Positions 2,798 through 28,485 of a stretch of 49,748 nucleotides of DNA are shown one piece after another. Position 1 is the first letter of the stretch. Each line of letters begins with the position of its first letter. This stretch comes from Lentisphaeria bacterium (lineage in GTDB: Bacteria > Verrucomicrobiota > Lentisphaeria > JABSQK01). The stretch covers positions 1 to 49,748 of the forward strand of contig JABSQK010000004.1 of NCBI GenBank assembly GCA_013215875.1, given 5' to 3'. The notes under the pieces were generated by a model. That model was not told the origin of the DNA, did no database searches, and saw only the letters and a program-made list of their open reading frames with translations. Both the position numbers and the translations under genes were made by a program.

Positions 2798-2897
2798 GTT
2801 TGTTTTGTTCATTACGAGCATGACAATCTTAAGGATACGACAATGAAAATCAACTGCTTTCAGAATCGAAAAAATATAAAAAGCGAACTGTTCAACT

Positions 2898-8712: not shown

Positions 8713-10535
8713 TGGATAAATTAAAAGGACAGTTACAGCAAATAGATAAAGCCCTGGCGAGCTTTGGTAGCTTCCGTAAACGCTGGGGAATGCTGGATGG
8801 CTTGGGTCGTTTCTTATCATGGGCATTGGGCGCATTTTTAATATGGTTCTTTCTTGACTGGGCGATTAAACTTCCAGCCTGGCCACTCGTTCTTCTTTTT
8901 GTTGCAGTTGTCGTAATCGCTCTGGTTTCTATTTGGAAGTGGCTCTTGAAGCCGGTGATGAAAACCATAAATATTGAAAATGAAGCTGTTGTTGCCGAGC
9001 AATTACATGGTGACCTCGACAACCGGATTATCGGGTCTAAGCAATTGGGTAAAGGTGTACTTGATGGTGAACATGAAGAATTGGGCTATTCCCCAAATCT
9101 GGTATTATCCCTGGTCGAACATACCATCGGCAAATTAAATGATATAAAACTCACCAGTTTGATCGACCTTAAAGCCGCAAAGAAAGCACTTGGAACAGGA
9201 ATCGTAATTTTAATCTGTGTTGTCTGCTTAGGTGTATTCGCCCAAGAGGCACTTAAAGAACGTTTTTCCCGCCTGGCAGATGCCTATGCACAGGTACTTG
9301 ATACACTCTTTCCCGTTGATATTGAGGTAGAACCGAAGAATAAAGCCGTGGTTAGAGGATTGCCTTTGCAATTAAAAGTGCACGTTGTTGGTGCTCGTCG
9401 CACTGAAGCAGTACTGGTCATGACCGATAAGAAAACGGGTGAAATTATTACAAAAGATTTAACCCTGGTGGATGACAAAGCGAGCTACACCATTAAAGAA
9501 GCGGATCAGGACTTTAGCTATAAATTTGGCTACAGCGGACGTTTTTCTGAGGAGTACACCATCCTTGTTGATGATCTGCCAATTGTCAAAGCAATAAACT
9601 TTGAAATCACTCCGCCTGGATATACAGGCCAACCCATGCGTATGATGACCGGCCGCGTGGCCAAGCTTAAGGGTTTAACAGGTACCTCGGTACTGGTAAG
9701 TTTTGCTGCTAATACACGTTTGGCTCCCGATAGCTGCTATGTCAAATGGAAAAGTGGCACTACAGATAAGATTGATATCTCAGGACGTTTTGGTAGCTTC
9801 CAGTTTCAAATTCGCGAAAATACCAAATTGGCAATTCACCTGACCGGCCATCATGGTAAAGATTTCCAAATGGCTCAGCCAATGGTCATACTCATTGAAG
9901 TTGTGCCAGATGCGCCACCGAGCTTGCATGTAACAACAAAAATTGCCAATGCAGAACTTGGTGCTAGTCAAGCAGCTGGTCTTCAGCTAGGCTATTTTGC
10001 CAAGGATGATTTTGGCGTTCAGAAAATAGAACTGTTCTATAAAATCGAATCCCAGTTTGCGGCATTAGGAATGAAAGACCGAAAAGGCCATAAGATACAC
10101 GCATTGACTACGCCCCGTGATCGTGTTAAAAACAAGTTTCGCGGTATCTTCAGCGGCAATACAATAAAAGCCGGTGATAAAGTAACTCTATGGCTAAAAG
10201 CGACTGACAACAATACCGAGACCGGCCCGGGCATAGCCCAAACCAAACGGTTTGAATTTACAGTCATTGGTAACGACCTCGGTCAGTTCACCGCGGGAGA
10301 CCCAATGTCAATGAAACGCAAGAGGGAATCTAGTATGCTCTTAGTTGAAGTCGAACGAGTAAAACGTAAGCAAGACCTTTTGCAAGACCCTGAGCGAATG
10401 GTTCGCACCGAAGTGAAGAAAGATTTTATACGCATGGATGTATCTACGAATGTTCGTAAGGATGTTGGATCGGGTAGTTCAGAGGAATTCTCTTCGCAAT
10501 ACTTTCAACTCTTGTCTGGTGGCGGTAACGATTGA
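8712..10535 (+). CDS. DUF4175-like membrane protein
   Basis: 607 residues. The ATG shares one base with the preceding stop (TAATG). Two close N-terminal helices (about 34-78) and one near 155-178 anchor a mostly extracytoplasmic body. The body has Ig-like strands and the segment FEITPPGYTGQPMRMMTGRV, which is typical of the DUF4175/TIGR02302-like proteins encoded after MoxR-VWA genes. The usual long C-terminal coiled coil of DUF4175 proteins is short here: after KRKRESSMLLVEVERVKRKQ the protein ends within about 70 residues. The next gene begins 41 bases on, so no missing C-terminus is hidden downstream. The function is unknown. The assignment rests on position, topology and a few motifs. Confidence 0.65.
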   Translation: MDKLKGQLQQIDKALASFGSFRKRWGMLDGLGRFLSWALGAFLIWFFLDWAIKLPAWPLVLLFVAVVVIALVSIWKWLLKPVMKTINIENEAVVAEQLHGDLDNRIIGSKQLGKGVLDGEHEELGYSPNLVLSLVEHTIGKLNDIKLTSLIDLKAAKKALGTGIVILICVVCLGVFAQEALKERFSRLADAYAQVLDTLFPVDIEVEPKNKAVVRGLPLQLKVHVVGARRTEAVLVMTDKKTGEIITKDLTLVDDKASYTIKEADQDFSYKFGYSGRFSEEYTILVDDLPIVKAINFEITPPGYTGQPMRMMTGRVAKLKGLTGTSVLVSFAANTRLAPDSCYVKWKSGTTDKIDISGRFGSFQFQIRENTKLAIHLTGHHGKDFQMAQPMVILIEVVPDAPPSLHVTTKIANAELGASQAAGLQLGYFAKDDFGVQKIELFYKIESQFAALGMKDRKGHKIHALTTPRDRVKNKFRGIFSGNTIKAGDKVTLWLKATDNNTETGPGIAQTKRFEFTVIGNDLGQFTAGDPMSMKRKRESSMLLVEVERVKRKQDLLQDPERMVRTEVKKDFIRMDVSTNVRKDVGSGSSEEFSSQYFQLLSGGGND

Positions 10536-10576
10536 TGACTATAGAATTTAATATTGGGACGATCGAATCATAGAAA

Positions 10577-12445
10577 ATGATCAAACGAATTTACATTGCA
10601 GTTTTTCTTCTGGCGACTTTGTCTTATGCAAAGTCTGTCGAGGAAATGAGCACCAAAGAACTTGTCGCGAAGATTGTTGAATATAGTGATGGCGATGAAC
10701 TCATCAATATCCATGTATTTATCCGTGAGGGCAGTGGTCGCGGTGCTGCGGGAATTACAGAAGCACTGAACTTCCTGAATCCCGATAAAAAGAAACGCAG
10801 CAAAAATCTTTATGAAATGATTCAGGGCTGTGCAAAAATCCGCCGTAACCCGGAGCAAATTGTCAAGCTGTATGATCCCCAAAGCCATGCCTTATATTAT
10901 GGCGCAAATGCATTGAAAGCTCAAACGCCAATCGTGACTGCCTTCACTTGGAAAGTTTGGCCTTATCACTTTCCACGTGCAGCTGTGCGTGCTGCACCAC
11001 TGGCAACACTGGCGTGGTTAAAGAAACAGATAGCTGCAGCAAAGCCACAAACAGAGAAATTATTAATGATTCTTACTGAGTGGAACCATTGGATCTCCTA
11101 CAAAAACGAACGCCAGTATACGAGCCAATATGGCAAGCTTCTAGGCGATGTGGCCAAACACCCTGTGCTCAGCAAGCATAAACTCATCAGCAATGCAATT
11201 CTTGGTGGACTTGGCGAATGCAAAGCGATTGATCAGATCGCCTATGTACGTGCCAAACTGAAAGATGAACATGCAGAAATTCGCGGGCGTGCTTGTATGA
11301 CACTTGCCTCATTTGGGACTGATGCCGCTCTCACTTCTCTTATTGAATTGTCTAAAACAGAGACAAATGCAAATACCCAGAAATCTCTCGGCAGCACGTT
11401 TACCTCTTTCCCGGCAAGTGAAAAAGCGGGTGCAGCAGCACTGGCTTTGTTCAAACGTACAAAGAGCCAAAATGCCCGCCGTGAAATACTCTTTCTACTT
11501 TCCACTACGAGTTGGTCACAACGCAATGCATTTATTGAAGAAGCGTTTAAGTATCCGGGAAATGGTGTACTCGGAGTGGCACTGCTCGCTGTGAATAAAC
11601 GCGTGCCTGATAAAGTTCGTGACGACATATTAAAGCTTTGTGACCAAGTTGAGAATCCAACACCAGAACTGATTGATGCCATTGGAAAATTGGGTGATGA
11701 GAAAGGGTTGGTAAGTCTAGCCAAATGGTTCGACAGTGAAAAAAACTGGTCTATTCGCAATAAAATAGTTCTTGCTGTTGAAATGATTAAGGGACCAAAA
11801 GCAAGCCAAACGACGCAAGTATTTATGAAAAAAGAAGCCAACAAGTTTGTTATTCATCAAATCATCCGGGTCGCCGGCCGCTTAAAGATCAAAGCGTTGA
11901 TTCCTGATATGATTCGTGTCGCTGGAGATCCCAAAAGTCCAATAGACATGCGTTCTGAGGCTGTTTGGGCTTTAGGTCATTTGGGTGGTGCAGAGGCTTA
12001 CAAATGCCTGACTTTACTCAGTGAAAATAAGTCTGCATTCATTGAAGATGATGTGCCCAAGGATCAGCCGGTGGAATCAGGTGCACTTGAACAAGCGAGA
12101 CTTTATGTGCAGCTCAGCTTAATGAATTTAGGCAGCAGCGATGCAGCTAAAACAGTTGAAAAAATTTATCATACGGGCACTCCGACAACCAAGCTAACGG
12201 TCTTAATCATTCTCAGTGATTTAAATAAGGATAGTCACTTGATTAAGGATGCGTTTCAAAGCACAGACTTTGTTGTACTTCTTGGTGCGGTGCGGGCAGC
12301 ATGGACAATTTCGCCTCTAAAATATAAGGCTGCTTTCGACGCTTTGCGACAGGATCCTTACCTCGCAGAAATGCTTAAGACCAGTTATAAGGATGTGACG
12401 ACTCTCGTGTATTACTTGACTCAGAAAAAGGAGACAGCACTGTGA
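10577..12445 (+). CDS. Exported HEAT-repeat protein
   Basis: 622 residues. A signal peptide (MIKRIYIAVFLLATLSYAKS) is followed by an all-helical protein. Repeated pairs such as DEHAEIRGRACMTLASFG and SPIDMRSEAVWALGHLGG are HEAT/PBS-lyase-type repeats (helix, Gly or Pro turn, Ala/Leu-rich helix), best seen at about 210-260 and 445-480. Such solenoids bind other proteins. The gene overlaps the next start by GTGA, which ties it into the array. Its location implies an extracytoplasmic scaffold for the VWA proteins or the giant secreted products. No enzymatic motif is visible. Confidence 0.75.
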   Translation: MIKRIYIAVFLLATLSYAKSVEEMSTKELVAKIVEYSDGDELINIHVFIREGSGRGAAGITEALNFLNPDKKKRSKNLYEMIQGCAKIRRNPEQIVKLYDPQSHALYYGANALKAQTPIVTAFTWKVWPYHFPRAAVRAAPLATLAWLKKQIAAAKPQTEKLLMILTEWNHWISYKNERQYTSQYGKLLGDVAKHPVLSKHKLISNAILGGLGECKAIDQIAYVRAKLKDEHAEIRGRACMTLASFGTDAALTSLIELSKTETNANTQKSLGSTFTSFPASEKAGAAALALFKRTKSQNARREILFLLSTTSWSQRNAFIEEAFKYPGNGVLGVALLAVNKRVPDKVRDDILKLCDQVENPTPELIDAIGKLGDEKGLVSLAKWFDSEKNWSIRNKIVLAVEMIKGPKASQTTQVFMKKEANKFVIHQIIRVAGRLKIKALIPDMIRVAGDPKSPIDMRSEAVWALGHLGGAEAYKCLTLLSENKSAFIEDDVPKDQPVESGALEQARLYVQLSLMNLGSSDAAKTVEKIYHTGTPTTKLTVLIILSDLNKDSHLIKDAFQSTDFVVLLGAVRAAWTISPLKYKAAFDALRQDPYLAEMLKTSYKDVTTLVYYLTQKKETAL

Positions 12446-13020
12446 ATCATCGCATACTATATCTTCTAGCAGCTATTTTTGTTTCACTAAGTAGTCAAGC
12501 GCATGAATCACCGATTGATCATATAGACCGCTTGATCAAGGTTTGGATTGAGAAAGATGGTTTGCATATCAGTTATCAAATGCATCTGAGTGAACGCCAG
12601 GCTTTGCTGCAACTACGGGCAGTGGATACGGATAAAAACGGGCAAATTAACGGCACTGAAAAAGCGACTTATTTCAAGAGTCATGGTGAAAAAGTGGCCA
12701 GCTATTTGGTACTGACACTGGGCAAAAAGCGCCTGCCTATTACGCTCGCTGAACCCGTTTTACTGAGGGCGAATTTTTCACAGCGTTATCATTTTGTGGC
12801 CCCGATGGATTTTAAGGCTGGTCAAACAGATTTACTCTTAACCGATAATTATTCCCATCTTTATCCTGGCAGCTGCCGGATAAAAGCGGACAGCCTTGTA
12901 AGCAATAGCTTTTTGAAAGCGTCATTTGCGAAAGAAACAGAAAAAATGCGGGGCCATGGTGGCATAATCATGATTAAACTTCAAGTCCTTGTTAAAGCAG
13001 AAAAGGAGCCTAGACAATGA
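12442..13020 (+). CDS. Exported EF-hand protein
   Basis: 192 residues from a GTG that overlaps the preceding stop by 4 bases. The signal peptide (MNHRILYLLAAIFVSLSSQA) is clear. A single canonical EF-hand loop, DTDKNGQINGTE at 62-73, has acidic or oxygen ligands at positions 1, 3, 5 and 12. The overall pattern (short beta-rich domain around one EF-hand, then a conserved TDNYSHLYPG turn) resembles the N-terminal extracytoplasmic domain found in some HupE/nickel-transporter-like proteins, but here there are no membrane helices after it. Calcium binding is likely. The role is unknown. It overlaps the next gene by ATGA. Confidence 0.65.
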   Translation: MNHRILYLLAAIFVSLSSQAHESPIDHIDRLIKVWIEKDGLHISYQMHLSERQALLQLRAVDTDKNGQINGTEKATYFKSHGEKVASYLVLTLGKKRLPITLAEPVLLRANFSQRYHFVAPMDFKAGQTDLLLTDNYSHLYPGSCRIKADSLVSNSFLKASFAKETEKMRGHGGIIMIKLQVLVKAEKEPRQ

Positions 13021-13811
13021 AATTATTTATAGCAGTTTTAGCATTACTTATTAGCACATCACTTCGTGCTGGATCCTTTGTAGATCAAGCCAAGAAAGGA
13101 AGCTCAAGTGCACTGAATGAAAATGAGATCAACAAGCGCAAGAGCAAGAAAGAAGAGCGTGATGGTCGCAACAAACTGAGTATGCGTCGCATCAAACCGA
13201 CATCAGGTTCGAGTGACTGGAATACAGACCCAACTGCCATCCCCTTTATGCTCTACCAGGTGAAAGAGCGAACCGGATTGCCAATCTATATTAATAACGA
13301 TGGCCTTGATGTTGGTTCCGACGATATTTTCGAAGAATCGATTATCTATCTTACCTCCCATCATGCTTGGGCTTTCAACGAGAAAGAAAGTAATAATTTA
13401 CAGATTTGGCTTAAGCGCGGCGGCACTTTGTTACTGGATGACTGTTATAATAAGGGCAGTTCTTTTTCCGATTCGGTTCAACCTGAAGTAGGAAAAATGA
13501 TCCCTGGAGCATCAGGAACGATTCTTCTTAAGACCGACCATATTGTCTCGGATGTATTCAAAATGGTTTATGATACGGATTGGCCTGGCGAATCTTTGGA
13601 AGCAATGCGCCCTTGGCAATACTTTATGCTCGATGACCGTCCAGCAGTATTCTTTACACCAAATGATGATGGTTGTGGTTGGGAGATTTCCACACCACCA
13701 AGTGCATCAAACCCGCTCGGAGAAGGGATTGGCCATGGTGGTGATAATCGTGCACGTGAACGTTTTTATATGTGGGCAACAAACTGGATGATGTATGTTT
13801 ACTGTCATTAA
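13017..13811 (+). CDS. DUF4159 domain-containing exported protein
   Basis: 264 residues with a signal peptide (MKLFIAVLALLISTSLRAGS). It has a Lys/Arg-rich linker, then the DUF4159 core. Recognisable pieces are WNTDPTAIPFMLYQVKERTG, IYLTSHHAWAFNEKE and IWLKRGGTLLLDDCYN, where a flexible loop precedes a Gly-Gly-Thr-Leu-Leu-Asp-Asp element. It ends in RERFYMWATNWMMYVYCH, as usual. The fold is glutamine-amidotransferase-like without proven activity. DUF4159 genes commonly accompany MoxR/DUF58/VWA genes in Planctomycetota, Myxococcota and Bacteroidota, which supports membership of the same system. The stop is followed by a 57-base gap before the first giant gene. Confidence 0.8.
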   Translation: MKLFIAVLALLISTSLRAGSFVDQAKKGSSSALNENEINKRKSKKEERDGRNKLSMRRIKPTSGSSDWNTDPTAIPFMLYQVKERTGLPIYINNDGLDVGSDDIFEESIIYLTSHHAWAFNEKESNNLQIWLKRGGTLLLDDCYNKGSSFSDSVQPEVGKMIPGASGTILLKTDHIVSDVFKMVYDTDWPGESLEAMRPWQYFMLDDRPAVFFTPNDDGCGWEISTPPSASNPLGEGIGHGGDNRARERFYMWATNWMMYVYCH

Positions 13812-13868: not shown

Positions 13869-16800
13869 ATGAGAAATGATAAAATGACGATTAAAAAATA
13901 CCTGGGCATTATTTTGTGCCTGTTAAGCTTTTGGGCCATGGCCGATGATTATGAAATCGAATTGGTTCCCTTCGATTCACCACATAAAAAATTACAACCT
14001 AGGCTTGTTCAGCATGCCATGCCATCGATCATGTATTGGTATACCCTGACTGAAGGGCAGCAAAGTTCCTATGCAGCTCCTTACTTTGATTGGGCCCGAA
14101 ATATCAAACTTGATGGCAAACCTGGTTTTGAAATTTATCAACGGGGAAAGTACATCGATCGACGTCCGTTTACACGCTTAAAACTAAAGGTTGGCGATCA
14201 CACGCTGGATCCTGGTAAACATGTTTTTACAGTAGCCAAGGACGGAACTGTTAGTACCAAGGATGAGGACATTGTACTAAGTACGATAAAGGGGCGCATT
14301 GCCTATATACCTGAGAACTTGAAAAAGGGAATTAATGATAAGGGTGTTGTCACTGTAAAACGTATACAGTCTCTCGAAGAAGCAGATGAGGAATCAAACC
14401 TTATCTGGGAGCTCACTAATGGTGATAAGGTAAAAGTATTAGGAACTGAAAATGGTTGGGTCAAACTCGAACTCGCGCCATTACATTTAATTAAGTTGAA
14501 GCTTTACCCTATTTCGATCCATGCAACCAATGCCGATCTCAAGGCCCCACCACCAAAGGAACTGTTCTATGCAATCTCCCTTCCAAATGTGGTTCTGCGT
14601 TTGGCAGATGATAAGAGACTTAAGCCAGAGGAACTGATTTTCAGGATCCGCGCAGCAACAAAGGAGCGTAAGAACCTTTATAAATATTTTGAAATTTGGT
14701 TACCATCGAACAAAGTAGGAAAAGGGTATTTGGCTTTCCCCTTAAAGCACACATTCCATATTGACAAAAACGGAATTACCAATGGTGCTGGAGGCGGCTA
14801 CGATGCAAAGTGGTTGACTAATCCCAAGGCAAAAGGCATAAAAAAATACCGTATTGATATTCCCGTGAATCGAGTGCCTGTTTATGGAGATGCGTTAAAT
14901 ACCTGCTTGATTGCGAATATGCAATTTATAAAAATACCTCAATTCGCCAGTGGCGACCTGGAGTATGCCAACCTATATGTTCGTAATGAACCCTATGAAA
15001 TACGTGTAACAGAAAAAGGCCCCTCTTTATCCATTAGTGGTAATCTTTCAGACTTGCCAAACAAAGCAATTCGCCTGGGTTGGACAGATGCCTATAAGAT
15101 CAACCAGAAACTATTGCTGGTTGAAGCGGAGTCAACACATCTCACAGCCGGACAAAAAATGCGTGTTCGAGTCAGAGCGCTGGATCCCAGTAAAAGCAGC
15201 GAAGCCGAGGCAGAAGCAATTAACACGGAAAACTTTATTAAGGCAATGGAAACAGCATACAAAGGGATAGAGAGAGGTATAAATACAAATTTAAATAATA
15301 TTGGTAGAGCCAGCAAAGATCTCATACAGTTGTCTCAAGTCCGTCAGAAAGCGCAGAAAAAATGGTCGATTGCAGCTGGTAACCTTAAGCGTGCACTGGG
15401 TCAAGAAAAAGCCATTCTGGGCAGGGTCGCGACGTATACAAAACAAGTGAATCAATTCAAAAAGCAGATTGCAGACGCGCAGAAAAAAGCAGCAGCAGAG
15501 AAGGATGCCAACAAGAAGAAGCCCCTTTTGGCCAGGGTTAAGCCCATTCAAACACGTTTGAAAGCGGCGACAACAAACCTAACAAAACAACAAGCCGCCT
15601 TAAAGAAAACGCAGGTGATAGTTGCAAAGGATAAGAAAACGGAAGCCATTACAAAGGTACAACATACGAATGAGGCAGATGCACATAATAAGTTAATTAA
15701 GCAGAGTGCGAAACATCCTAAAATAGTCGTGTTGCGTAAGGTGAATGAAAAGGCAAAGAAAAAGCTTGTTGAAAGTCAGGCAAAGATAGACCGTTACAAA
15801 AAGATTCTAGTGACCCAAAGGGCAACACGTCTAAAGAGAACAAATTATAATCCGTTGGCTAATGCACCTGCTTTTGCTCAGATTCGTGACTTTAACGACA
15901 GTAATTGGCAACCCGTAAAAGTTGAAGCTGCCAGTCCAAATGCCAAAGCAGGAAGCAAGGAAGCAAACGAGTGGTTTCTTACTCTACCGAGTAAAATGCG
16001 CGATGGTATCTATAAATTGCGTATCGGGGTAAAACCCGTGCAAAAGGATGAGCAGATTTTTCATGTTGAACAATGGGTGACAATTTCAGCCGGAACAGGA
16101 CTGGGAATTGGCGTTTTTACACAGCGCTCACGGACAGCATTTTACCGGGGTGAAACATTTTGGCTGGCACTGGGTGTTTTGGGTGGAACGCGCTCGATTC
16201 CTGCTGGAACAAAAATTGAAGCAGACTTGGTGGATGAGAATGGCATCCGCGTACCCATCGTGCGGGAAACGGTAAAGAGTGAAATTAAAGACCGGAAAAC
16301 GTATGTGGTGACCCTCTCTGGAGAACAAACACTAAATCTGGCTCCAGGAACGTATCGGGTCGAACCGAAGTTGGGTACACAGGATGGCCCGGTGTTTAAA
16401 CTTTATATTGTTGATCCCCAGCCAAAAACAAACTTTATAAATATGCTTCTAGGAAAGTACAATCAAGTTGGTTTCGATTACAGTTCGCTTCTCAGCGGCG
16501 GAAATGCCATCTCGCAGCGCTCGGTACAGTTGGGTGGTCAGCATGCTGACTCGCGCCTTTCCGCAGACATGGTTGTTAAAGATCTAGCCGAGTCAGGTTA
16601 TAATTCGTTCAAAGGAATGAGTTATGGAATGAATCGGGTCTTTTTTCCCAGCAGCCGTACCATTCGTATGTTAGTAGAAGAGCGGCCTGAGCTTGGTCCT
16701 TGGGAAGCCTTTGCACCACCGAGTGGTCGCGATCTCTTTCTCGATGCCTGCGTAAAAAACAACATTGCCTTTTACGAAAATCTCTTCACTCAACATGACA

Positions 16801-19800
16801 GCATTATGCCACGCGGTGAAAAATTTCTAGCTGCCTGTGATCGTTATTCGACGCTTGAAGCAGCATCCATGCGACACAGCCCGGCTTTCCGTGGTCTTTG
16901 TATGTACGATGAATTTAGCCATTCGCTCGACCATGATACGGCTCAGGTTGTCATGACTCATTTTCATAAAATGGACGAGAAAGGATTTCGCAAGAAATAT
17001 GGTTATAGCAGTAGTGATGCCCAGATTGCAATGGACCGCTTTACCGGACGCCCAGAAGGGCAGCGGGACTATAAAGATTTGGTGAAATATAAAGCTTACC
17101 CTAAATATATTGACTGGACCTGGGAAGAGTTTAGTCGCCGGATGACCAATAGCATACATGACATGATGCCGGGATCAGTGAATTTCACACTTGCCCGTGT
17201 AGCCGCTCACCCGGGTGATAATCTGGGGATTGGCAATGGTAATATTGCCACAGTTTTTGCACCGTTGGAATTGGCCACAGCAGTTGGCTATAAAGACATG
17301 GGCGGTTGGGGCGCTTTCCCTCTATCAGGACCCCTTATGGCTGATGCATTTCGTATTAACGATACGCTGAAATCCGTTCCGATGCTTGCAGGTCAGAGAA
17401 CCGGATCTTATGGCGATTCAAACCTGCGCGATGCTTTTATGACACTATCGCAAAAACCGGATGGATTGAGTTTTATGCAATATGATACGAGCATTCAAAC
17501 ATCCGTTGGCACAGATCATTATTCAACGGTGCGCGATATTGCCAGAAACCTGACGACTCGCTATGGCGACTTTATCCTGTATTCGAAAAAAGGGTATAAG
17601 AAAGTGGCCATCTATGATTCACGTGAAGCGAAATTTCTCTCAATCCGAAAATCAGTCAATGTTTCACTTGCCAATGAAGCGTTGTGGGCATCTTGCTTGC
17701 GTGCTGGTTACCCTGCTGATTTCCTGACGGATCAACAGATCCTTAAAGATAAAGGCATGGATTACGATGTCATTATTGCACCCGGTTGGATCTTCAAAGA
17801 AGAGGTGCCACCAAAGACACTTGAGGCTCTAAAGCGACTGAAGCAGGCGGGGAAAATTATTATAGTAGAGAAGAGCAGTAATTTACCGATTCCCGGTATT
17901 GTCCGTCTTCGTCTACCTTCAGTTAAGGGTGCTGAAAAAGAAGCTATTGACCTGGATGAGATTGAAGACCGTCTCGGCGGTATGTTTCCAAAATATCTCG
18001 ATGTCGACAATGAGCGCTGGTGGAAACATACCATTAAAATAACTGCCGCCCTCAAAGAAACATTGTCAAAGTATATCCCACCTGCAGCTGAAGGGCATGA
18101 TATGCTTTTAAGTCCGGATTGGCTTCAAAGCCAGGAAGGCTCTTATATGATTATGTCGAATCATGCTTATACCGGCTTCAAGGGTAACCATAAGACCCTA
18201 TTTCAGGCACCACAGGTTTTTGATATTACCGTTATAGACAAGCCACCAGTTTGTTATGACATGCTTGAAATGAAGCAGGTCCCGGTAAAAAAGCTTGCGA
18301 ATAAGAGGAGCTCAATAAAAGTTGATATGCGCACCTATCCGGGTAAATTTTATGCCTTCCTGCCAACAGCTATCGACCATCTAACAATTAAAACGTCGCC
18401 TGCAGTTGCGGGGCAAAATATGAGTTTCGAGATTTCCATCACGGATAAATCGGGTAAAATGATTCCGGCTGGCTTTCCTGTTGAAATTAAATTGACCAAT
18501 GAAAAAGGACAGATCTTAAGACATGTCTTCCGTAGCGGAACACCTGTTTATAAAGGTATCTATAGAGTACCCGTTAACTGCCCTGGTAATAAAATAAAAC
18601 TCTGGGCTCGGGAATTAATATCGGGGTCAAGTTGTGAAGCAACAGCTGCATATATCGCCAAACCCTTTGTTCCTAAAAAATCCGCGAATGCTGATGTTCG
18701 TATTTCAGAGATCGATAAAATTAAACGCTTTATAAATGAGGAATGTAAAGTTGCAACTCCTCTGTTTACTGCGAAAGACATTCGCAAACCCGGTCGCCTG
18801 GCCATTCGTATTCGTAAACCAAGAAATATCCAGCAACCCGGAAGGTCCAATTGGTATAAGGACAAAATGTCTGCCTATATAAAATCCAAATGTACAGAAG
18901 CAGAATTGAAAGTGATGCACGCTTACGATCCAAAGAAAGGACAAAGCAAGGAGTTGTATGCGACAATTGTAACAGTTTTGAACAGGATCATACAAGATGG
19001 GCGTCTATTTAGCAAAAAACGCTTCCCACCCGGATTTTTAACTGCCTCTGACAATGATGTGGGCGAAGATGTTACAAACCCTAAAAGCTTTTTAGATATC
19101 AATCGCTACCTGCTGACTAAATTTTACTCGGAAGAATTGATTGCCGGTGAGGTTATCTATGTAACGACGGATGAGAAATGGCTTGTTGAAGATGCCTGGC
19201 GCCTGGGTGACATGCTTATGGCGAAGGGATATCGTGTGCGCGTTTTGCCGAGTCAAGCATTTGTTCGTGGACCTGCTCGTGGATGGAACCACACAGATAA
19301 GGAGCTACCATTTCTTGATGGTAGCCGTATGTGGCGCGGATCTGTTGTTAAGCCTGGTGTATTCCTCGATGGACCGGTAATCGTTCTTGGTCGTCGATGG
19401 ACACTGGCAAACCATTTAATTAAGCGTGATGCACTGCCAGAACCCATTACGGAAAATTTCCCTGGTGCAGGGCGTTGTCTGGTCGGTTGGGTGCCAAAGG
19501 CAATTTCAAATTATCATAATACACTCTATGTCCTGACAAATGACAAGGACGGCTTAAAGAAAGGGATTGATGCACTTATCAATATTGATAAACAAAAAGC
19601 CAATGTCTTTATTCACCGCCCACTTGTTAAAGAAAAAGCAACGAAAGCGGCAGTTCAAATGAAAACGTTTGAAGGAAATTCAAAAGACCTGAAGAGCTAT
19701 CGTGAAATGCATAGTGACGAAGATAGAGTCACTGCAATTGATACAGATACGGCAACTGGCCGCAGCGTATTTGGTACATTTGGCTACGGCAAGAATCTCT

Positions 19801-20528
19801 TTTGCTTTGACAAGGCAGGCAAATTATTGTGGAAGACATTCCTGCCTGAGCACAATGTTTATTATGCCAAGTGGATTGATGGTGGAAAGAAAATTGTTGC
19901 ATCCACTGGGCATGGTTTCTTTATCTTTATTCTCGATGCTACAAATGGAAAAGTTATTAAGAAATTTGCCTCTACCGAGTGGCCCGATCTTCATGTTGGT
20001 GAGCGTGAACACAACACAGAGGTGAGAATTATCTTAAACCCACCCCTGCGACAAATCTTTGTATTCGGAGCCACTGGTTTACTGGCAGTTGACTATGATG
20101 GAAAAAAGATGTGGTTTAAGGATCGTGTCAAAGAGATCGTTGAATATCCCGCTGAAGCAGTACAAACGAGCTTTGCTACTTTTGGAAAATATTTACTGAT
20201 GGAGGGCTTCGAGATAAGTCCTGACGGTAGTAAAGTTATTTATAATGAACGACTTGTAATTGGCAGTACCTATGGGTTCGCTGGATCAATCATCAACCTC
20301 TGGGGAAACCAACCACAAATATTCGATGCCAAAACAGGCAGGTTGCTGCTCAAAAGTACCACTGCGGATCCTGGAACAAATATAAAGTGGGAGGTGACCT
20401 GGGGCAAAGAAGGTCCTTACATACATGCCAACAGCCTTGCAGCACCTTTACTCTTTGTAAATCCAAATAGAAAGAGTGGTGTAGATCCAGGTAAATTAGG
20501 TGCGTTCAGACCGCCATTTGTTGATTGA
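13869..20528 (+). CDS. Giant exported glycosidase-like protein, N-terminal part (2219 aa)
   Basis: Start at 13869 with CAGGGA 7 bases upstream. The signal helix (about 8-24) is followed by Ig/jelly-roll-like domains, a Lys/Ala/Gln-rich coiled coil (about 455-655) and two beta-sandwiches. A glycosidase-like barrel follows (about 870-1230) with MYDEFSH placing Glu1015 as a possible acid/base. An alpha/beta domain at about 1245-1355 (MDYDVIIAPGWIFKEE) is like the GH42 trimerisation/amidotransferase-like fold. A later alpha/beta domain (about 1755-1920) resembles those preceding GH20/GH67 barrels, and a PQQ-like propeller starts at about 1940. The propeller is cut at residue 2219 by a TGA. The same frame continues open for 34 codons and then through the next CDS, so this is probably the N-terminal two thirds of one 3137-residue protein. 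Domain limits are estimates by eye, and the substrate is unknown. Confidence 0.75.
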   Translation: MRNDKMTIKKYLGIILCLLSFWAMADDYEIELVPFDSPHKKLQPRLVQHAMPSIMYWYTLTEGQQSSYAAPYFDWARNIKLDGKPGFEIYQRGKYIDRRPFTRLKLKVGDHTLDPGKHVFTVAKDGTVSTKDEDIVLSTIKGRIAYIPENLKKGINDKGVVTVKRIQSLEEADEESNLIWELTNGDKVKVLGTENGWVKLELAPLHLIKLKLYPISIHATNADLKAPPPKELFYAISLPNVVLRLADDKRLKPEELIFRIRAATKERKNLYKYFEIWLPSNKVGKGYLAFPLKHTFHIDKNGITNGAGGGYDAKWLTNPKAKGIKKYRIDIPVNRVPVYGDALNTCLIANMQFIKIPQFASGDLEYANLYVRNEPYEIRVTEKGPSLSISGNLSDLPNKAIRLGWTDAYKINQKLLLVEAESTHLTAGQKMRVRVRALDPSKSSEAEAEAINTENFIKAMETAYKGIERGINTNLNNIGRASKDLIQLSQVRQKAQKKWSIAAGNLKRALGQEKAILGRVATYTKQVNQFKKQIADAQKKAAAEKDANKKKPLLARVKPIQTRLKAATTNLTKQQAALKKTQVIVAKDKKTEAITKVQHTNEADAHNKLIKQSAKHPKIVVLRKVNEKAKKKLVESQAKIDRYKKILVTQRATRLKRTNYNPLANAPAFAQIRDFNDSNWQPVKVEAASPNAKAGSKEANEWFLTLPSKMRDGIYKLRIGVKPVQKDEQIFHVEQWVTISAGTGLGIGVFTQRSRTAFYRGETFWLALGVLGGTRSIPAGTKIEADLVDENGIRVPIVRETVKSEIKDRKTYVVTLSGEQTLNLAPGTYRVEPKLGTQDGPVFKLYIVDPQPKTNFINMLLGKYNQVGFDYSSLLSGGNAISQRSVQLGGQHADSRLSADMVVKDLAESGYNSFKGMSYGMNRVFFPSSRTIRMLVEERPELGPWEAFAPPSGRDLFLDACVKNNIAFYENLFTQHDSIMPRGEKFLAACDRYSTLEAASMRHSPAFRGLCMYDEFSHSLDHDTAQVVMTHFHKMDEKGFRKKYGYSSSDAQIAMDRFTGRPEGQRDYKDLVKYKAYPKYIDWTWEEFSRRMTNSIHDMMPGSVNFTLARVAAHPGDNLGIGNGNIATVFAPLELATAVGYKDMGGWGAFPLSGPLMADAFRINDTLKSVPMLAGQRTGSYGDSNLRDAFMTLSQKPDGLSFMQYDTSIQTSVGTDHYSTVRDIARNLTTRYGDFILYSKKGYKKVAIYDSREAKFLSIRKSVNVSLANEALWASCLRAGYPADFLTDQQILKDKGMDYDVIIAPGWIFKEEVPPKTLEALKRLKQAGKIIIVEKSSNLPIPGIVRLRLPSVKGAEKEAIDLDEIEDRLGGMFPKYLDVDNERWWKHTIKITAALKETLSKYIPPAAEGHDMLLSPDWLQSQEGSYMIMSNHAYTGFKGNHKTLFQAPQVFDITVIDKPPVCYDMLEMKQVPVKKLANKRSSIKVDMRTYPGKFYAFLPTAIDHLTIKTSPAVAGQNMSFEISITDKSGKMIPAGFPVEIKLTNEKGQILRHVFRSGTPVYKGIYRVPVNCPGNKIKLWARELISGSSCEATAAYIAKPFVPKKSANADVRISEIDKIKRFINEECKVATPLFTAKDIRKPGRLAIRIRKPRNIQQPGRSNWYKDKMSAYIKSKCTEAELKVMHAYDPKKGQSKELYATIVTVLNRIIQDGRLFSKKRFPPGFLTASDNDVGEDVTNPKSFLDINRYLLTKFYSEELIAGEVIYVTTDEKWLVEDAWRLGDMLMAKGYRVRVLPSQAFVRGPARGWNHTDKELPFLDGSRMWRGSVVKPGVFLDGPVIVLGRRWTLANHLIKRDALPEPITENFPGAGRCLVGWVPKAISNYHNTLYVLTNDKDGLKKGIDALINIDKQKANVFIHRPLVKEKATKAAVQMKTFEGNSKDLKSYREMHSDEDRVTAIDTDTATGRSVFGTFGYGKNLFCFDKAGKLLWKTFLPEHNVYYAKWIDGGKKIVASTGHGFFIFILDATNGKVIKKFASTEWPDLHVGEREHNTEVRIILNPPLRQIFVFGATGLLAVDYDGKKMWFKDRVKEIVEYPAEAVQTSFATFGKYLLMEGFEISPDGSKVIYNERLVIGSTYGFAGSIINLWGNQPQIFDAKTGRLLLKSTTADPGTNIKWEVTWGKEGPYIHANSLAAPLLFVNPNRKSGVDPGKLGAFRPPFVD
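20526..20528 (+). other. Single in-frame TGA dividing a 3137-codon frame
   Basis: The codons PFVD-TGA-LKTGNRIETDF run on without a second stop to the ATG at 20631 and on to the TAA at 23280-23282. The base after the TGA is C, a leaky context. Restoring TGG (Trp) needs one G-to-A reversal. No Shine-Dalgarno precedes 20631. The stop lies inside a beta-propeller, which argues that both halves belonged to one polypeptide. Confidence 0.85.
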
Positions 20529-20630
20529 CTGAAAACTGGAAATCGCATTGAAACAGACTTCCATTTTGTAAAAGTCTTCAATAGTAAAGGCCAGACAATC
20601 GTTAGCTACTTAGATCGTTCCGATGTCTGG

Positions 20631-23282
20631 ATGAAAAAGCGCGACCTCTTTTCAGCAGATGATAAATTGTATTATCGTACAGGCCGAAAAGGCGGAATTT
20701 TCTGTTTGGATCTGGCTACTGGAAAAAAAGTTTGGTCACAGCAGATTGATGGTATTGCACTGCTGTCGCTTGCTGGTAAGGATCTGATGGTTGGTTCCCG
20801 CAACGGGCGCATTTTGAGAATTGCTCCGGATGGTAAAATAGTCTGGCAGACTCAATTACGTAAGCACCATGAGATGCCCGGTGGCGATTATTCGGAGTTC
20901 CTACAAAAAATTAGCCGCAGAGAGGTGGATTCAACACCCGAGTTTTACCCAATACGAACCGCCCAAGCAGATGATTTTAGCAAAGAATTCGACTTTGGTG
21001 CGACTGGTGGCAAGAAAGATGCAATACTCAAAATGGGTATTAATCAATTGGCCAATGGCGATTTTACTAAAGGCAGTGAAAACTGGAAAATCGAAGGCGA
21101 TGATAAACTTAAGAAGGATAAGGGTGGTAAAGCGTTGCGGGTTTCAATTACCCCAAAAGTAGCGGCAAAAGGATTTAAAGGGAAACAAGCCGCCTTGACT
21201 CTGCTAAATAAACAACAGATGCTGCAGACAGTCGATCGTAAAGTCGTGAAGCGGGTAACCTATCTGCTGGAATTTTACTACAAAGTAGAGAGCTATGATA
21301 CCGTTCTTGCCGCCGCCGCACTCTTGGACTCAGTGAATGAAAAGAATTATTTCAATGGATCGAATTATACGGCTAAACCAGGTGAGTGGACCTTTGGCCG
21401 TCTGGCAATAAAATCCTTGCATGATACAGACACACTAAGAATTGGTTTTGAAGCAGGCAAAGGCAAAGTTGAGATAGCCAATGTGAAATTGAGAATTGTG
21501 CGTTTCCCATCGGCAAACATTTTGGGTAATTTGGCCCTGCATAAAATAAAACCGACGCATGCCAAAGATGTTCGTAACTTGTACAATAAAATTCCTCAGC
21601 AACTCAGGGAATTTCTGATGACTGACAATGGTGTAACTGTGATGATGCAAAGTACCCCCCTTGGCGCATTGGTTATTACGCAGGAACCGGCATTCCTGCA
21701 CAATGGCAGACTGGATGATTTGGATACAATGTGGTGCTACAAACCGAATCCTATGGGCTTTGCGGTTTCTCTAAAAGAACCGACCTATGTCTCGCATATT
21801 GTTTTATATATGAACAATGTAAAACCGAATATTCATTACAAGGCGATGAGTATTCTGGCCAATGACTTTGAACGGAAAGTACCCGTTACAGTTGGTGTTG
21901 TTCGCGGCGACCACCGACGCTTCATCGTGATTCCAATAAAACTCATTCTCACGGATAATATCAAAATTCTTCCGGGTCACTCACGAACACAGCTTGATAC
22001 AATAACGGAAATAGAAGTATATGGACCCGTCGGCGGCATAGAGCAAATGGGTAAGAAAAGTTTTGTCGCTGATGCCAAAGCAACACATATGTTCATGGGC
22101 AATGCAAAACACGTTCCAACAAATTTACCTGGTGATCTGACTGGTCCATTAAAAAAGGTTAATCTTCCGTCCATGCCCACGATACCGGGGGCTTCAGCCC
22201 TTCATTCTGGCATGACCATTGTCAAGGGGATTGCTACATTTCCACAGGCAGATGGACTGCTGCACTATAGACCAGTTACAGTGAAAGCGAATTTACTTAA
22301 GAAGCAAAGAGAAAATGCAGCAATCGTAAAAGCGAGACTGAATAAAACAAAGGCCCCTGTAGCATTTAAGGGTTGGAAGGGAAGTACTGTCACACCAATA
22401 ACAACGCCGACGCGTTATGCCAACCGCCTTTTAGTTGGGTCTGCCGATTATAAAATGCATGCCATTGGGGATAACGGTGCTCATCTTTGGGGCTTCAAAA
22501 CAGATGGCCGGGTGTATTCCGCACCCACGCCGCATGAGGCAGAAGTCTACTTTGGTTCCGATGACGGATACCTCTATAAGGTGGATATCGATTCAGGTAT
22601 TTTGATCTGGCAGTTTAAGACAAATGGCCGTATACGAAGTGCACCAGTTGTTGCTGATAAGAAAGTTTATGTTGCCTCTTGGGATGGTAATGTTTACGCA
22701 GTTGATCTGACCATGGGCGATTTACGTTGGAAAGCACCCATAGCCAGCACAACAAGCACCTCGCTTGCCTACAGCAAAGGAAAACTGTATATCGGTGACG
22801 AGGATGGAAATCTTCATTGCCTAAATGCTGCCAATGGTAAACCAGCCTGGAAACCAGTAAATATTAAGGGTGAACGCTTTTCACAATGCGCTGTTGTTTG
22901 TCCCGACGGCGTATACTTCCAGGGCGATTATGGAACAGGTGTTTTTCTGAATCTTAATACTGGCGCAGAGAAGTGGCCGAAGAAGGATGTTTTGAAGCCT
23001 TTGTCTAAGCCATTGGAGACCCCAGCGCGAGTGACCGGTCAAGTCTTTGCAACAAAGACCCAGCTCATCATCCCCCATACCCGTGGCTTGCTAGTATTGA
23101 AACGGGCGACCGGTATTCCCGATGCAGCCTATAAGGCACCCGCAGTATTCAAGCATGTATTGTCTGCGGCAATTTACGATAATCATCTTTGTGTGACGGA
23201 AAGTATCACGCATGCTCAGGTGAATCCAGAGAAACGATTTGTAATCTCCCACGGCACTAAAATGACCGTGTGGCAGAAATAA
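20631..23282 (+). CDS. Giant exported protein, C-terminal part: PQQ-like propellers and carbohydrate-binding modules
   Basis: 883 residues from the ATG at 20631, but the frame is open from 20529, directly after the TGA. There is no signal peptide and no ribosome binding site, so a free-standing gene is unlikely. The first about 80 residues (KGGIFCLDLATGKKVWSQQI) complete the propeller begun upstream. Then come a galactose-binding-like CBM (about 136-290) and an F5/8 type C-like domain (about 295-470). A second, well-formed PQQ-like beta-propeller (about 585-883) has repeated blades such as VYFGSDDGYLYKVDIDSG and VYVASWDGNVYAVDL. Such propellers usually mediate protein or glycan contacts. If translated only as part of a truncated gene, this segment would be dead. 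If the TGA is read through, it is the C-terminal third of the giant. Confidence 0.75.
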   Translation: MKKRDLFSADDKLYYRTGRKGGIFCLDLATGKKVWSQQIDGIALLSLAGKDLMVGSRNGRILRIAPDGKIVWQTQLRKHHEMPGGDYSEFLQKISRREVDSTPEFYPIRTAQADDFSKEFDFGATGGKKDAILKMGINQLANGDFTKGSENWKIEGDDKLKKDKGGKALRVSITPKVAAKGFKGKQAALTLLNKQQMLQTVDRKVVKRVTYLLEFYYKVESYDTVLAAAALLDSVNEKNYFNGSNYTAKPGEWTFGRLAIKSLHDTDTLRIGFEAGKGKVEIANVKLRIVRFPSANILGNLALHKIKPTHAKDVRNLYNKIPQQLREFLMTDNGVTVMMQSTPLGALVITQEPAFLHNGRLDDLDTMWCYKPNPMGFAVSLKEPTYVSHIVLYMNNVKPNIHYKAMSILANDFERKVPVTVGVVRGDHRRFIVIPIKLILTDNIKILPGHSRTQLDTITEIEVYGPVGGIEQMGKKSFVADAKATHMFMGNAKHVPTNLPGDLTGPLKKVNLPSMPTIPGASALHSGMTIVKGIATFPQADGLLHYRPVTVKANLLKKQRENAAIVKARLNKTKAPVAFKGWKGSTVTPITTPTRYANRLLVGSADYKMHAIGDNGAHLWGFKTDGRVYSAPTPHEAEVYFGSDDGYLYKVDIDSGILIWQFKTNGRIRSAPVVADKKVYVASWDGNVYAVDLTMGDLRWKAPIASTTSTSLAYSKGKLYIGDEDGNLHCLNAANGKPAWKPVNIKGERFSQCAVVCPDGVYFQGDYGTGVFLNLNTGAEKWPKKDVLKPLSKPLETPARVTGQVFATKTQLIIPHTRGLLVLKRATGIPDAAYKAPAVFKHVLSAAIYDNHLCVTESITHAQVNPEKRFVISHGTKMTVWQK

Positions 23283-23292
23283 AGGTTAAACA

Positions 23293-26200
23293 ATGATAAA
23301 TAAATTAATACCATTACTGATATTGGCCGCTTTCACTCTAAGCGCCCAGCAAGAAGATATAATCGTTCCAGAGACATACTATCTGGTTGATAACTTTTCA
23401 TCGAGGATGAGCGGGTCTACAGCACAATTGACTGCAGAGATCGATGAGAAGATTAAGAAAGTCGGCGTTGCATCAAACCGTTTGACCTACGACTTTGGTA
23501 ATAAGCGCTTCGGCCTCATTAAACTTCGTGAAGGTGAAATCCGCAGCGAAAAACAAGGCGAATTGAAATTCTGGTTATTTGGTGATGGCTCTGGTAATAC
23601 CCTTTCGCTGTCTTTCAAACATTCAGCCAAAGCGACCAACAAAATTCGTGGTAAACATCTTGCTGGTCATCGTCCATACAAAGCAAATAAATTTCGTATC
23701 CCCCTTACATTTAAAGGCTGGAAAGAGATTATTGTAGATTTCACGGATGAGAAAGTCAGTCGGCGTGTAATTTGGCTTGAGAGTATACGGGTGGATTTAA
23801 AAGCAAAAGGCAAAACGAAAAAAGGGCAAATCTGGATCGATGATATGCGGGTTTATCCTGAGCGTCGTGGCGCTGCCCCATTGATTCTTGCTGACCTCTC
23901 ACTTAATGGGCCAAAGATGCGCTCATATGACGATAATATCTATTACAATTTGGATGTTCGTAACTTCAGCGACGATTCTGCAAAAATAATTACGCGCTTG
24001 AAAATGAGCGATAGCAATGACAATCAAATAGCTGACAGATCATTTGATATTAAAGTTGAGGCGAATGCGTCCAAAGAGATTAAATTAAATATTGAGCCGG
24101 AAAACCTGCAGATTTACCTGCCGCCTTTTAAGATTACTGCAGAACTTTTCTCTCCGGACAGTCCAGATGTCAGTAGCCATGAAGAGCAGGATTTGATTAT
24201 GGGAAATGCCATGTTCTTGCATGATAACTTCAGCGATGTTGCCGGCCGCTGGTTTCTTTCAGGTATTCCATTTGAGCTACGACGAGGACCAGACAGGGTC
24301 TCAAGTTTATTCACCGAGTCTCAGCGCTCCAATGCCCAGACACAAACCAGTGGGCGTATCAGCCGGGTGAAGCTCGATGCTGCAGCAATGAAAAAGATTC
24401 CCGGCCAGTATGCCATGAATCTTAAATTTGTTAAGGATGCAATGGTTTTTAACGGCTTGCCAAGTGCGGCATCAAAAGAGTCTGAGCGTTACCTGCCAGG
24501 CGATGCCTATAGTATGGGTCTTTGGGTTAAGGGTAGTGGTGGTGGAAGCCTACACGCAATCATCATCGATTTTGCTGCGCCGGGGGCGACAAGCTATAAC
24601 TGGAAACTTCATTATCAGCGAATAAAATTGTGCGACCTGAATTTCACTGGCTGGAAATACATTGAAGTCCCTTTGCCTGGAAATGGTATTGGTACGCATC
24701 GTATACGCGGATCAACTGAAGGTATCGATTATCCCCTGGAATTAACCGCATTTGTGGTTAAATCAGCGTTTAAAACAGAAACAAAAATGAAAGAGGTCAC
24801 AGACCCAAAAGATAAAAAAAAGAAGATAAAAGTTCCCTATGTCGTAAAGACAAAAGAACCTGCGGGTGGTGAAGTGAGCATTGCTGGTTTGACCGTACAT
24901 ACACAAAGCAAGCAAGCGAAAGCCCTTGCCTTGCACATAGGCTATGATGATGCGACTAACAATTATCAAGCAAAATCTGGCGCCTGGGTTACGGTACAGA
25001 ACAGCTGGCGGGTAAAGAAACGGACAATGAGCCTGGACTGGGAATTGACCGACAGGAATGATGATATCATCGTTAAGGGCCGTCAAAAGCTTGATCTCTT
25101 ACCCCTGGCACACAAGTCAATTCGCATTGAATTGGCCAAGCATGCAAAAAAGATTGCTGGTAAATCTGCCCCCTTTCATTTAAGAGTCGTTGCCACAGAT
25201 GCCGAAGATGAAGGACGCATTGAGCGAACAATCGTTCTCGCACGACCTGATAGTAATGTGATGTTTAATGATTTTGAAACTGTGCGTGGTTACCTTGGAC
25301 TTAAAGCTGCCGGCGTCGACAAAGCCCCTCAGCCCGGCCAGGAAATTGCCAAGACCAGTACGGTACAGAAAAAGAGCGGTAAACAATCCTTGGCGATGAA
25401 CTGGACAAAAGGCCCTTCCATATTTGTTTCCATCGACCCACCTGTGCCTGGTATACCCACAGAAGTCTCTATGCAAGTATATGGTGATGGCTCTGGCGTA
25501 TTGTTTTACCCTTTAATTGGTGACCAGCATGGTGTTTTGACAGGCAGAGAAGATCTGGCCTGGGATTTATTTTTACCCATCAGTCTTCAAGGTCCTTTGC
25601 AAAATGCAGTTAAGGTCGATTGGAAAGGCTGGAAACTGGTAAAATTCCGCTTGCCTGTTATTCCCCATAACTGGAGCAATGAGGATGCGAATAAATCCTT
25701 TCAGCCAACCTACCCACTCGGACTTCATCTTGCGGTAACCACTAAGACTACGGAAGTGGCTAAAGGCACGATTTATGTGGACGATATCGTCTTTAAATCT
25801 CATATCGATCCGGCAAAACGGGTCTCTATGGTACTCAACCGCAGCAGTGCGACAAATCTCGTGAAACCGGGTACAGATATCACTGTGACAGTTGCCAACA
25901 TGGAAAGCGGCGGAAAATCACGCAAAGTTATTGTTTCAGGCGGTCTCTTTGACTGGCGTGGAACCCGAGTAACTGGTTCTGATACAACGTTGAATCTTGG
26001 CCCGGGTAAATCAAAACTCATAGCAGTTTGCCCAAAGATTAAAGAAGGGGCTTATATCCTTAAAATTAGCCTGAAGGTTGTTATTCCTGCCAAAGGAAAA
26101 TTAAAAGAAGTGGCGAAACAAGTTGCCTATATAAAAGAGGATGTGCTTGTTGCCGATGGTGCCAAAGTTATGAATGCGAACTGGTTGAATGATGCAAAAG

Positions 26201-28485
26201 ACCAGGATCGTTTGCGCATACCCTTGAAGGCAACATTTGCACCGATCAATCAAGACTGGGACTGGACAGAGTTTCATATCGGAAATCTCCAGGTTGAAAC
26301 GTTGATGGAATTTGCTTACGGAATTAAACGAAACAAGCAGGAACCCTTTGGTTTGCTTGGTTACAGTGCCTTTTGGGCCTCTGGAACTGGCTTCGAAGAT
26401 ATGGAAAATGATGTGCTAATGATCCGTGGCGGCTATGATACTGGTGGACGTGACTGGGGACATACGGTGGATATCTTTCATACCCCGGTGCGTATCGATG
26501 ACTGGGATAATTACTGTTTCGAACTTATGCGGAAAACTGGCAAACATATGTCCGGCTGGATATTGTGGGATTCGCCGGATAGTTCCGCAGGAATGGGTCT
26601 AGGTGTAGATCCCGCACTGTTTGCCAAAATGATTCGTATCGCTGATAAATGGCGAGTGAAATATTGTCCCGAGACCCCCATCTATATTGGTGGACTCAGT
26701 AAGGCAACATCTGTTTCCTATCTGCTGGATCTGTCCGAACAATATGATGATCATCTTGCAATTGCTGCTGCCCAAAAGGCCGTCGATAAAATCGAAAAGG
26801 ACATGAAAAAGAAGGCCGGAGATGATGAGCCAAAGCCTGCAGATCTAAAAGTGCTTGAAGCAGCCAAGAAGAAAGTCGCAGACTTGATAGCCAAGTCATT
26901 AACTGCGCTTGATCATATTCAGGGTGTTAACTTACGCATTGATGCAGGAACGCTGTCTCCTGAGGACAGCCGAATCATGGCCTACATTAGTGAGGTGCGT
27001 TCTGTTATAGAAAAACGTTCGAAGAACAAGGCGCCTAAAGCGGTACTGGTGACAGACCTTGACTGGGGTGTTGAACGTGGAGAGGGTGGCTTAAATGCGT
27101 TTGATCAAACAGCCTACCTGATTCGAGCGAACTTGCTCATGCATCAGCAAAATGTGCAGCAGTCACTGATCATGTCCAATGATCGCTTTTTGCGGACAGG
27201 GTATGGTATGATTTATAAACGGACAACAAGTATTCCACCGATGAGTCAAAGAATGCCGACTTTTCAATTCAAACCGGTTTGGTGGGGTCTGGCTCGAACG
27301 CGCAAACTCTTAGCCGGGTTAAATGCTACAGGCGAGGTTGTTATCCAAGATCGTATTCCCGGACTAACTCGCTGTCTCACTTATATCCGTAAATCAGACA
27401 AGAAAAAGATTGCTATTATCTGGCGTAATAATGACCCAGCAGTACTCAACTTTGAGAAGACCGGACTCAGTGTTGTCTCTGCCGTCGATATCTTTGGCGC
27501 AGCAGTTATTAAGGACAATAAACAATATGTGATCGGTATGCTTCCCTGTATATTTGAGATGAAAGCTGGCGCAGAGCCGCTTCAAGAAGCATTAACACGT
27601 CTGCGCGTGCAAGATAAGGGAATGAAACTTCACTGGGCTCAGGCCGTGGTCGCGAGTTTCACTCCAGCCACAGGAAAAATCGTAGCCTGGAAAGGACCTG
27701 GAACTGCAAAAGAATTTGAGGGTTATGATTCAGCAGGGAGCCACAAGAAGATCAAAGGTATTGCCTTTAAGAAAGGCGATACAGAAAGCTTTACCTGTAA
27801 GACGAGCGGTAAATATGGCTTGGTTTTGCGCAAACGTTTTTATCTTGATGCCAATGGCCAGCAAGCAGAGGTTAAGGTAAATGGCAAAAGCATCGGTACT
27901 TGGGATATGAGTACAGGATTTACAATAACAAAAATCGAAACAGATAAGCTGTCCCATGGATTTCGTGAGTCGAGCTTTTTGCTCCCCGTTTCAGGAAGCT
28001 CTGCAAAAATAGAACTGACGTATACAACAGATGCGAATACCATTGGCTGGACTGTTCTAGAGCAAGTTTCTGGACCTTTCGAGCTCGGTTTATTGGGGGC
28101 AGTACATGTGGATTCAGTCGTTATTTCACCACGTATTGCTAAGAATGTCGTTGGCTTGGGAATGCAGTTTGGGCAGGAAAAAGTTGACCATGGTATTTCC
28201 ATGTTTGCGCCGGCCTTAATGGAGTATTCTCTCAACAAGCAATTTAAAACACTGAAAGCAAGCTATGGCATAGATGCAGTGACAGAGGGTAAAGGTAGTA
28301 TTGTTTTCGAAATCTGGCTCGACCAAAAGAAGGTTTGGAATTCGAAAGTTATTTCCGGACTCGATAAAGTTCAAAAATTGGAAGTTGATGTAACAGGGGG
28401 AAAACGCTTACGCTTGATTATTACTGATGGCGGCGATGGCAATAAGTTTGACGTAGGTAACTGGGGCAATATTGAAATAAAGTAA
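23293..28485 (+). CDS. Giant exported multi-CBM protein with glycosidase-like barrel and C-terminal NPCBM domain
   Basis: 1730 residues with AAAGG 7 bases before the ATG. A signal peptide (MINKLIPLLILAAFTLSAQQ) is present. Three related beta-jelly-roll modules (about 29-190, 309-533, 656-836) share a pattern of DNF/NDFE start, a middle such as FWLFGDGSGNTLS, then KGWK..(I/L)V and I(W/Y)(I/V)DD(M/I). They alternate with CARDB/Ig-like spacers. A barrel-like domain (about 990-1420; GWILWDSPDSS, VLVTDLDWGVERGEGG) looks like clan GH-A but shows no certain pair of catalytic Glu. The last about 130 residues match an NPCBM-type module (ISPRIAKNVVGLGMQF...). It lies 10 bases after the preceding stop. 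A large cell-surface or secreted polysaccharide-binding enzyme is likely, but the substrate cannot be inferred. Confidence 0.75.
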   Translation: MINKLIPLLILAAFTLSAQQEDIIVPETYYLVDNFSSRMSGSTAQLTAEIDEKIKKVGVASNRLTYDFGNKRFGLIKLREGEIRSEKQGELKFWLFGDGSGNTLSLSFKHSAKATNKIRGKHLAGHRPYKANKFRIPLTFKGWKEIIVDFTDEKVSRRVIWLESIRVDLKAKGKTKKGQIWIDDMRVYPERRGAAPLILADLSLNGPKMRSYDDNIYYNLDVRNFSDDSAKIITRLKMSDSNDNQIADRSFDIKVEANASKEIKLNIEPENLQIYLPPFKITAELFSPDSPDVSSHEEQDLIMGNAMFLHDNFSDVAGRWFLSGIPFELRRGPDRVSSLFTESQRSNAQTQTSGRISRVKLDAAAMKKIPGQYAMNLKFVKDAMVFNGLPSAASKESERYLPGDAYSMGLWVKGSGGGSLHAIIIDFAAPGATSYNWKLHYQRIKLCDLNFTGWKYIEVPLPGNGIGTHRIRGSTEGIDYPLELTAFVVKSAFKTETKMKEVTDPKDKKKKIKVPYVVKTKEPAGGEVSIAGLTVHTQSKQAKALALHIGYDDATNNYQAKSGAWVTVQNSWRVKKRTMSLDWELTDRNDDIIVKGRQKLDLLPLAHKSIRIELAKHAKKIAGKSAPFHLRVVATDAEDEGRIERTIVLARPDSNVMFNDFETVRGYLGLKAAGVDKAPQPGQEIAKTSTVQKKSGKQSLAMNWTKGPSIFVSIDPPVPGIPTEVSMQVYGDGSGVLFYPLIGDQHGVLTGREDLAWDLFLPISLQGPLQNAVKVDWKGWKLVKFRLPVIPHNWSNEDANKSFQPTYPLGLHLAVTTKTTEVAKGTIYVDDIVFKSHIDPAKRVSMVLNRSSATNLVKPGTDITVTVANMESGGKSRKVIVSGGLFDWRGTRVTGSDTTLNLGPGKSKLIAVCPKIKEGAYILKISLKVVIPAKGKLKEVAKQVAYIKEDVLVADGAKVMNANWLNDAKDQDRLRIPLKATFAPINQDWDWTEFHIGNLQVETLMEFAYGIKRNKQEPFGLLGYSAFWASGTGFEDMENDVLMIRGGYDTGGRDWGHTVDIFHTPVRIDDWDNYCFELMRKTGKHMSGWILWDSPDSSAGMGLGVDPALFAKMIRIADKWRVKYCPETPIYIGGLSKATSVSYLLDLSEQYDDHLAIAAAQKAVDKIEKDMKKKAGDDEPKPADLKVLEAAKKKVADLIAKSLTALDHIQGVNLRIDAGTLSPEDSRIMAYISEVRSVIEKRSKNKAPKAVLVTDLDWGVERGEGGLNAFDQTAYLIRANLLMHQQNVQQSLIMSNDRFLRTGYGMIYKRTTSIPPMSQRMPTFQFKPVWWGLARTRKLLAGLNATGEVVIQDRIPGLTRCLTYIRKSDKKKIAIIWRNNDPAVLNFEKTGLSVVSAVDIFGAAVIKDNKQYVIGMLPCIFEMKAGAEPLQEALTRLRVQDKGMKLHWAQAVVASFTPATGKIVAWKGPGTAKEFEGYDSAGSHKKIKGIAFKKGDTESFTCKTSGKYGLVLRKRFYLDANGQQAEVKVNGKSIGTWDMSTGFTITKIETDKLSHGFRESSFLLPVSGSSAKIELTYTTDANTIGWTVLEQVSGPFELGLLGAVHVDSVVISPRIAKNVVGLGMQFGQEKVDHGISMFAPALMEYSLNKQFKTLKASYGIDAVTEGKGSIVFEIWLDQKKVWNSKVISGLDKVQKLEVDVTGGKRLRLIITDGGDGNKFDVGNWGNIEIK

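Follow-up and report, generated by a model that had tools for sequence, protein, structure and literature searches.

A private in-frame TGA in the gene for a giant exported propeller protein of a Lentisphaeria bacterium is probably an ordinary nonsense change

The internal TGA and its reading frame

The window, that is, the whole stretch of 49,748 nucleotides of Lentisphaeria DNA analyzed here, contains a gene of exceptional length that encodes an exported protein and whose reading frame meets a TGA codon well before its end. This raises the question of whether the TGA is read through or recoded, separates two genes, or interrupts one gene. In the list of open reading frames and their translations, the frame contained no other internal stop and ended at TAA 23280-23282. 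The TGA closes an ORF of 2219 amino acids (aa), and an ORF of 883 aa follows in the same frame (Table 1). By the codon signature of the gene, the 34 open codons between the TGA and the next ATG scored +0.17 bits/codon, compared with +0.17 before and +0.18 after them, and the other five frames of this segment had lower scores, each with stops. The chance of a 34-codon open stretch alone was ~12%, and that of 917 codons staying open downstream of the TGA was ~10^-24.5. The first-pass annotation had described the frame, the TGA, and the 34 open codons accurately, and its coordinates were reproduced. Its view that the 34 codons are normal propeller sequence was supported by the flank-like coding score and the alignment to relatives, and the base after the TGA was indeed C (TGA-C).

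Table 1. Coordinates of the interrupted gene and its neighbors in the window
Feature	Position	Strand	Remarks
Giant exported protein gene	13869..23282	+	3137 codons including the internal TGA
Single in-frame TGA	20526..20528	+	Lies in a weakly conserved loop in the first propeller; close relatives have P, V, or R, and distant ones lack the loop
Open codons (34) before the next ATG	20529..20630	+	Scored as coding; alignable with relatives
Rest of the frame, starting at the next ATG	20631..23282	+	Relatives have no separate gene here; lacks a Shine-Dalgarno motif and an apparent signal peptide
Upstream cassette: MoxR ATPase, DUF58, BatA/VWA, VWA/GATase-like, DUF4175, HEAT-repeat protein, small ORF, DUF4159	1787..13811	+	
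1730-aa protein with NPCBM domain	23293..28485	+	After the giant gene in three close relatives; near it in distant ones

The giant protein begins with a signal-like segment, followed by N-terminal and middle regions without an assigned domain, a BamB/PQQ-like beta-propeller at about residues 1940-2330, and a further C-terminal region, with the C-terminal PQQ_2 propeller lying downstream of the TGA. The TGA site itself is inside the aligned domain that resembles a BamB/PQQ propeller. When the propeller region was modeled for an uninterrupted relative (L038), the site (residue ~300) fell in a low-confidence stretch (residues 255-336, mean pLDDT 58.9).

The downstream part could be an independent gene. 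An ATG is present 34 codons after the TGA, and two real genes would result if the protein had been split in this lineage and its downstream part were translated alone from ATG 20631. Most genes in the window have a purine-rich Shine-Dalgarno-like motif upstream; none was found before ATG 20631 (tagatcgttccgatgtctgg), as had been claimed, and no signal-peptide-like start was apparent there. Furthermore, the cut falls within a propeller domain, and none of the relatives is split at this place. These observations make two separate genes highly improbable.

Conservation of the giant gene among relatives

Two close relatives (L037 and L038) came from a single-sequence scan of GTDB genomes, a phylum search yielded G382 (L094), G427, G378, G414, G264, and G311, and a class search yielded G108 and G063. 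The close relatives were 38-45% identical to the giant protein: L037 and L038 were continuous across the site at 42-44%, and L094 was in one frame at 38%. In L038, a single open frame of 3042 codons aligned with residues 27-3136; L037, which is cut by the contig end, aligned with residues 1132-3137; and most of L094 aligned, in a single 2611-codon frame. Six distant homologues (G108, G063, G427, G378, G414, and G264; ~22-29% identity) also crossed the site in single open frames. Neither a stop at the equivalent position nor a split gene was found among the three close and six distant relatives. Homologues that end at this point and are followed by a separate downstream gene, which the first-pass annotation had named as evidence against one interrupted gene, were looked for and were absent among the relatives.

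The residue aligned to the TGA was P in L037, V in L038, and R in L094, and the distant homologues had none because the loop is absent. Neither Trp nor Cys occurred at the aligned site in the three close relatives, the surrounding loop being variable and of low conservation. The proposed origin of the TGA from TGG was thus not borne out. On either side of the TGA, the identities were similar: 47% over roughly 1000 residues before it and 45% after it for L038, 45% and 47% for L037, and 42% and 38% for L094, suggesting that the downstream part was fully constrained until very recently. Codon bias was also alike on both sides, and no decay was seen elsewhere in the giant gene, indicating a stop that arose recently, is an error, or is tolerated. 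No near-identical sequence from another strain was found in the searched relatives, the GTDB genome contig scan, or viral contigs.

With regard to gene location, the giant gene is the ninth in its cassette and is followed by the NPCBM protein. On the contigs of L037, L038, and L094, most cassette members that could fit were present in the same order, and no match to the HEAT-repeat protein or the small ORF was found on these contigs; pieces of the cassette also lay near distant homologues. The giant protein resembles the uncharacterized giant exported propeller proteins of MoxR/DUF58/VWA/DUF4175/DUF4159 cassettes (L037, L038, L094, L033, L034, and L095-L098) in its 2600-3170-codon frame, at 23-45% identity, and in having the same neighbors in close relatives, but the internal stop occurs in the window copy only. 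As a separate observation, the cassette at 1787-28485 (MoxR, DUF58, VWA, DUF4175, and DUF4159) is kept across MAGs labeled Verrucomicrobia and Planctomycetota; it includes two giant exported proteins, one with about 3100 residues and the other with about 1700.

Decoding of UGA at the site and in the genome

Selenocysteine could in principle be encoded at 20526-20528, the features in its favor being the UGA codon and a weak hairpin downstream. However, SelA was absent from the genome sequence analyzed, SelB gave matches below the cut-off only, and no tRNA-Sec was found at the cut-off, the best scorers being Ser, Leu, Trp, Arg, Tyr, and Met tRNAs. The RNA fold after the TGA was unremarkable (z = -1.25; 25 of 200 shuffles folded at least as well), and no Rfam match was found downstream of it up to E = 5 in a library that includes bacterial SECIS elements only to a limited extent. 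The close relatives also lack Cys at the site. Selenocysteine insertion, which had been put forward as one model, is therefore refuted on the sequence analyzed; with the genome an estimated 92.67% complete, one of the required genes might lie in the missing sequence, but hardly the full set.

A genome-wide reassignment of UGA to Trp or another residue was likewise refuted. In a 1.09-Mb genome sample, TGA was the stop of 140 of the 544 long frames, 17 of them with TGA-C, and TGA-C also closes the cassette's BatA-like gene (3809-6151), confirming the claim that TGA is a normal stop elsewhere. RF2 matched over its cut-off, and no anticodon TCA was present among 48 tRNA matches, almost all of which were identified by ARAGORN. 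UGA decoding has been linked to a tRNA-Trp with a 4-bp anticodon stem, A9C, and G24A (PMC13092985), whereas the tRNA-Trp(CCA) here, read by eye, has a full 5-bp anticodon stem, A9, and G24, and so lacks those features. TGG was used at ~12.9 per 1000 codons, in-frame TGA was almost nil, and no internal stops were seen in 31 sulfatase-family matches. What speaks for reassignment is a second candidate in-frame TGA (L106 -7680), at which Trp reads naturally by eye. Separately, a 4.9-kb contig (C402 of G000) carries four tRNA genes at L108:465-980 (Arg-acg, Thr-tgt, Arg-tct, and Val-tac) and a weak fifth Rfam match; their anticodons repeat ones found elsewhere in the genome, and the cluster may derive from a phage, a plasmid, or contamination.

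In functional readthrough, some ribosomes would insert Trp or another near-cognate residue at UGA-C to give short and long exported forms. In Escherichia coli, UGA is the leakiest stop; readthrough at a single reporter position ranged over 0.7-6% among stop codons, and values of up to 14% are reported for UGA under particular conditions (PMC11126739), and in yeast a C at +4 raises readthrough (PMC5289835). The locus resembles bacterial UGA readthrough in its UGA followed by C and in the open frame downstream, which is intact and constrained, and the lack of a second disabling change in the gene would also be expected from functional readthrough. However, neither the stop nor its context is conserved, no relative having a stop here, no notable RNA structure or Rfam match follows the TGA, and tRNA-Trp(CCA) is without suppressor features. 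Moreover, the base that lowers accuracy in E. coli when it follows is G, not C (PMC11126739), and in this cassette TGA-C serves the BatA-like gene as its normal stop. Functional readthrough is thus unlikely, and a lineage-specific, functionally used UGA-C readthrough giving truncated and full-length propeller proteins is very unlikely; low-level fortuitous readthrough may nevertheless occur at this TGA. Among the three options in the first-pass annotation, nonsense mutation and sequencing error were supported, and programmed readthrough, to which only the TGA-C context pointed, was otherwise unsupported.

Likely origin of the stop and other interruptions in the assembly

The gene is continuous in all relatives, the stop is private to the window copy, no machinery for selenocysteine or UGA decoding was found, and the gene has no decay. 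We consider it about 90% probable that the TGA is a private nonsense change, either a recent loss-of-function allele or a consensus error in the draft genome; its recency is inferred, as would be any choice between a real allele and a base error. Judged by sequence, the locus would be classed as an interrupted gene, with uninterrupted homologues, a private stop, and a downstream part homologous in frame. The TGA is most likely ordinary and not a novel mode of decoding.

A real allele would mean that translation ends after residue 2219. The truncated product would keep the signal sequence and the N-terminal 70% of the protein, but the last strands of the BamB-like first propeller and all of the C-terminal PQQ propeller would be missing. 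The downstream part would most likely not be made, apart from basal UGA readthrough as measured in E. coli (PMC11126739); a start at ATG 20631 is unlikely and would give a fragment without an export signal. Some cells of the population would in that case have lost the terminal part of this large and conserved exported protein. The main consequence concerns annotation: the two predicted proteins are best recorded as a single interrupted gene, and the TGA should not be listed as a recoding event.

The assembly comprises 876 contigs and 5.49 Mb, with an estimated contamination of 5.06%, and the window is one contig; it is a fragmented multi-contig draft that was probably metagenome-assembled. The single private stop with both sides intact and conserved, and similar interruptions in the assembly, match pseudogenes or consensus errors in draft MAGs, from which the locus differs only in its unusual gene length. 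In the interruption scan of 1.09 Mb, 438 stops had an open stretch of 60 codons or more on both sides; the coding filter retained 23, and 3 of these were judged likely interrupted genes on reading: the giant gene (TGA), L106 -7680 (TGA), and one on contig C232 (TAA). The latter two were judged by eye only, with no homologues to compare, and they indicate a background of nonsense interruptions in the sample. Since two interruptions are TGA and one is TAA, they do not point to a TGA-specific mechanism.

The L106 candidate, for which no relatives of the CAP protein were found in the class, has its TGA at 7680-7678 on the minus strand (contig C235 of G000), in a signal-peptide protein reading RVVKISKFK*KIADRLYWDGE (the asterisk marks the stop); further along, the same frame encodes a CAP domain (PF00188, E 1.4e-7), and the first 38 codons past the TGA contain no start codon. 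The C232 candidate (G000, minus strand) has its TAA at L148:592, about contig position 30591; its signal peptide is followed by HIVNGYRHDIQYSEDGS*FQTLAALSIEKLELAPGDYTIHFK, and the frame then stays open over a long stretch.
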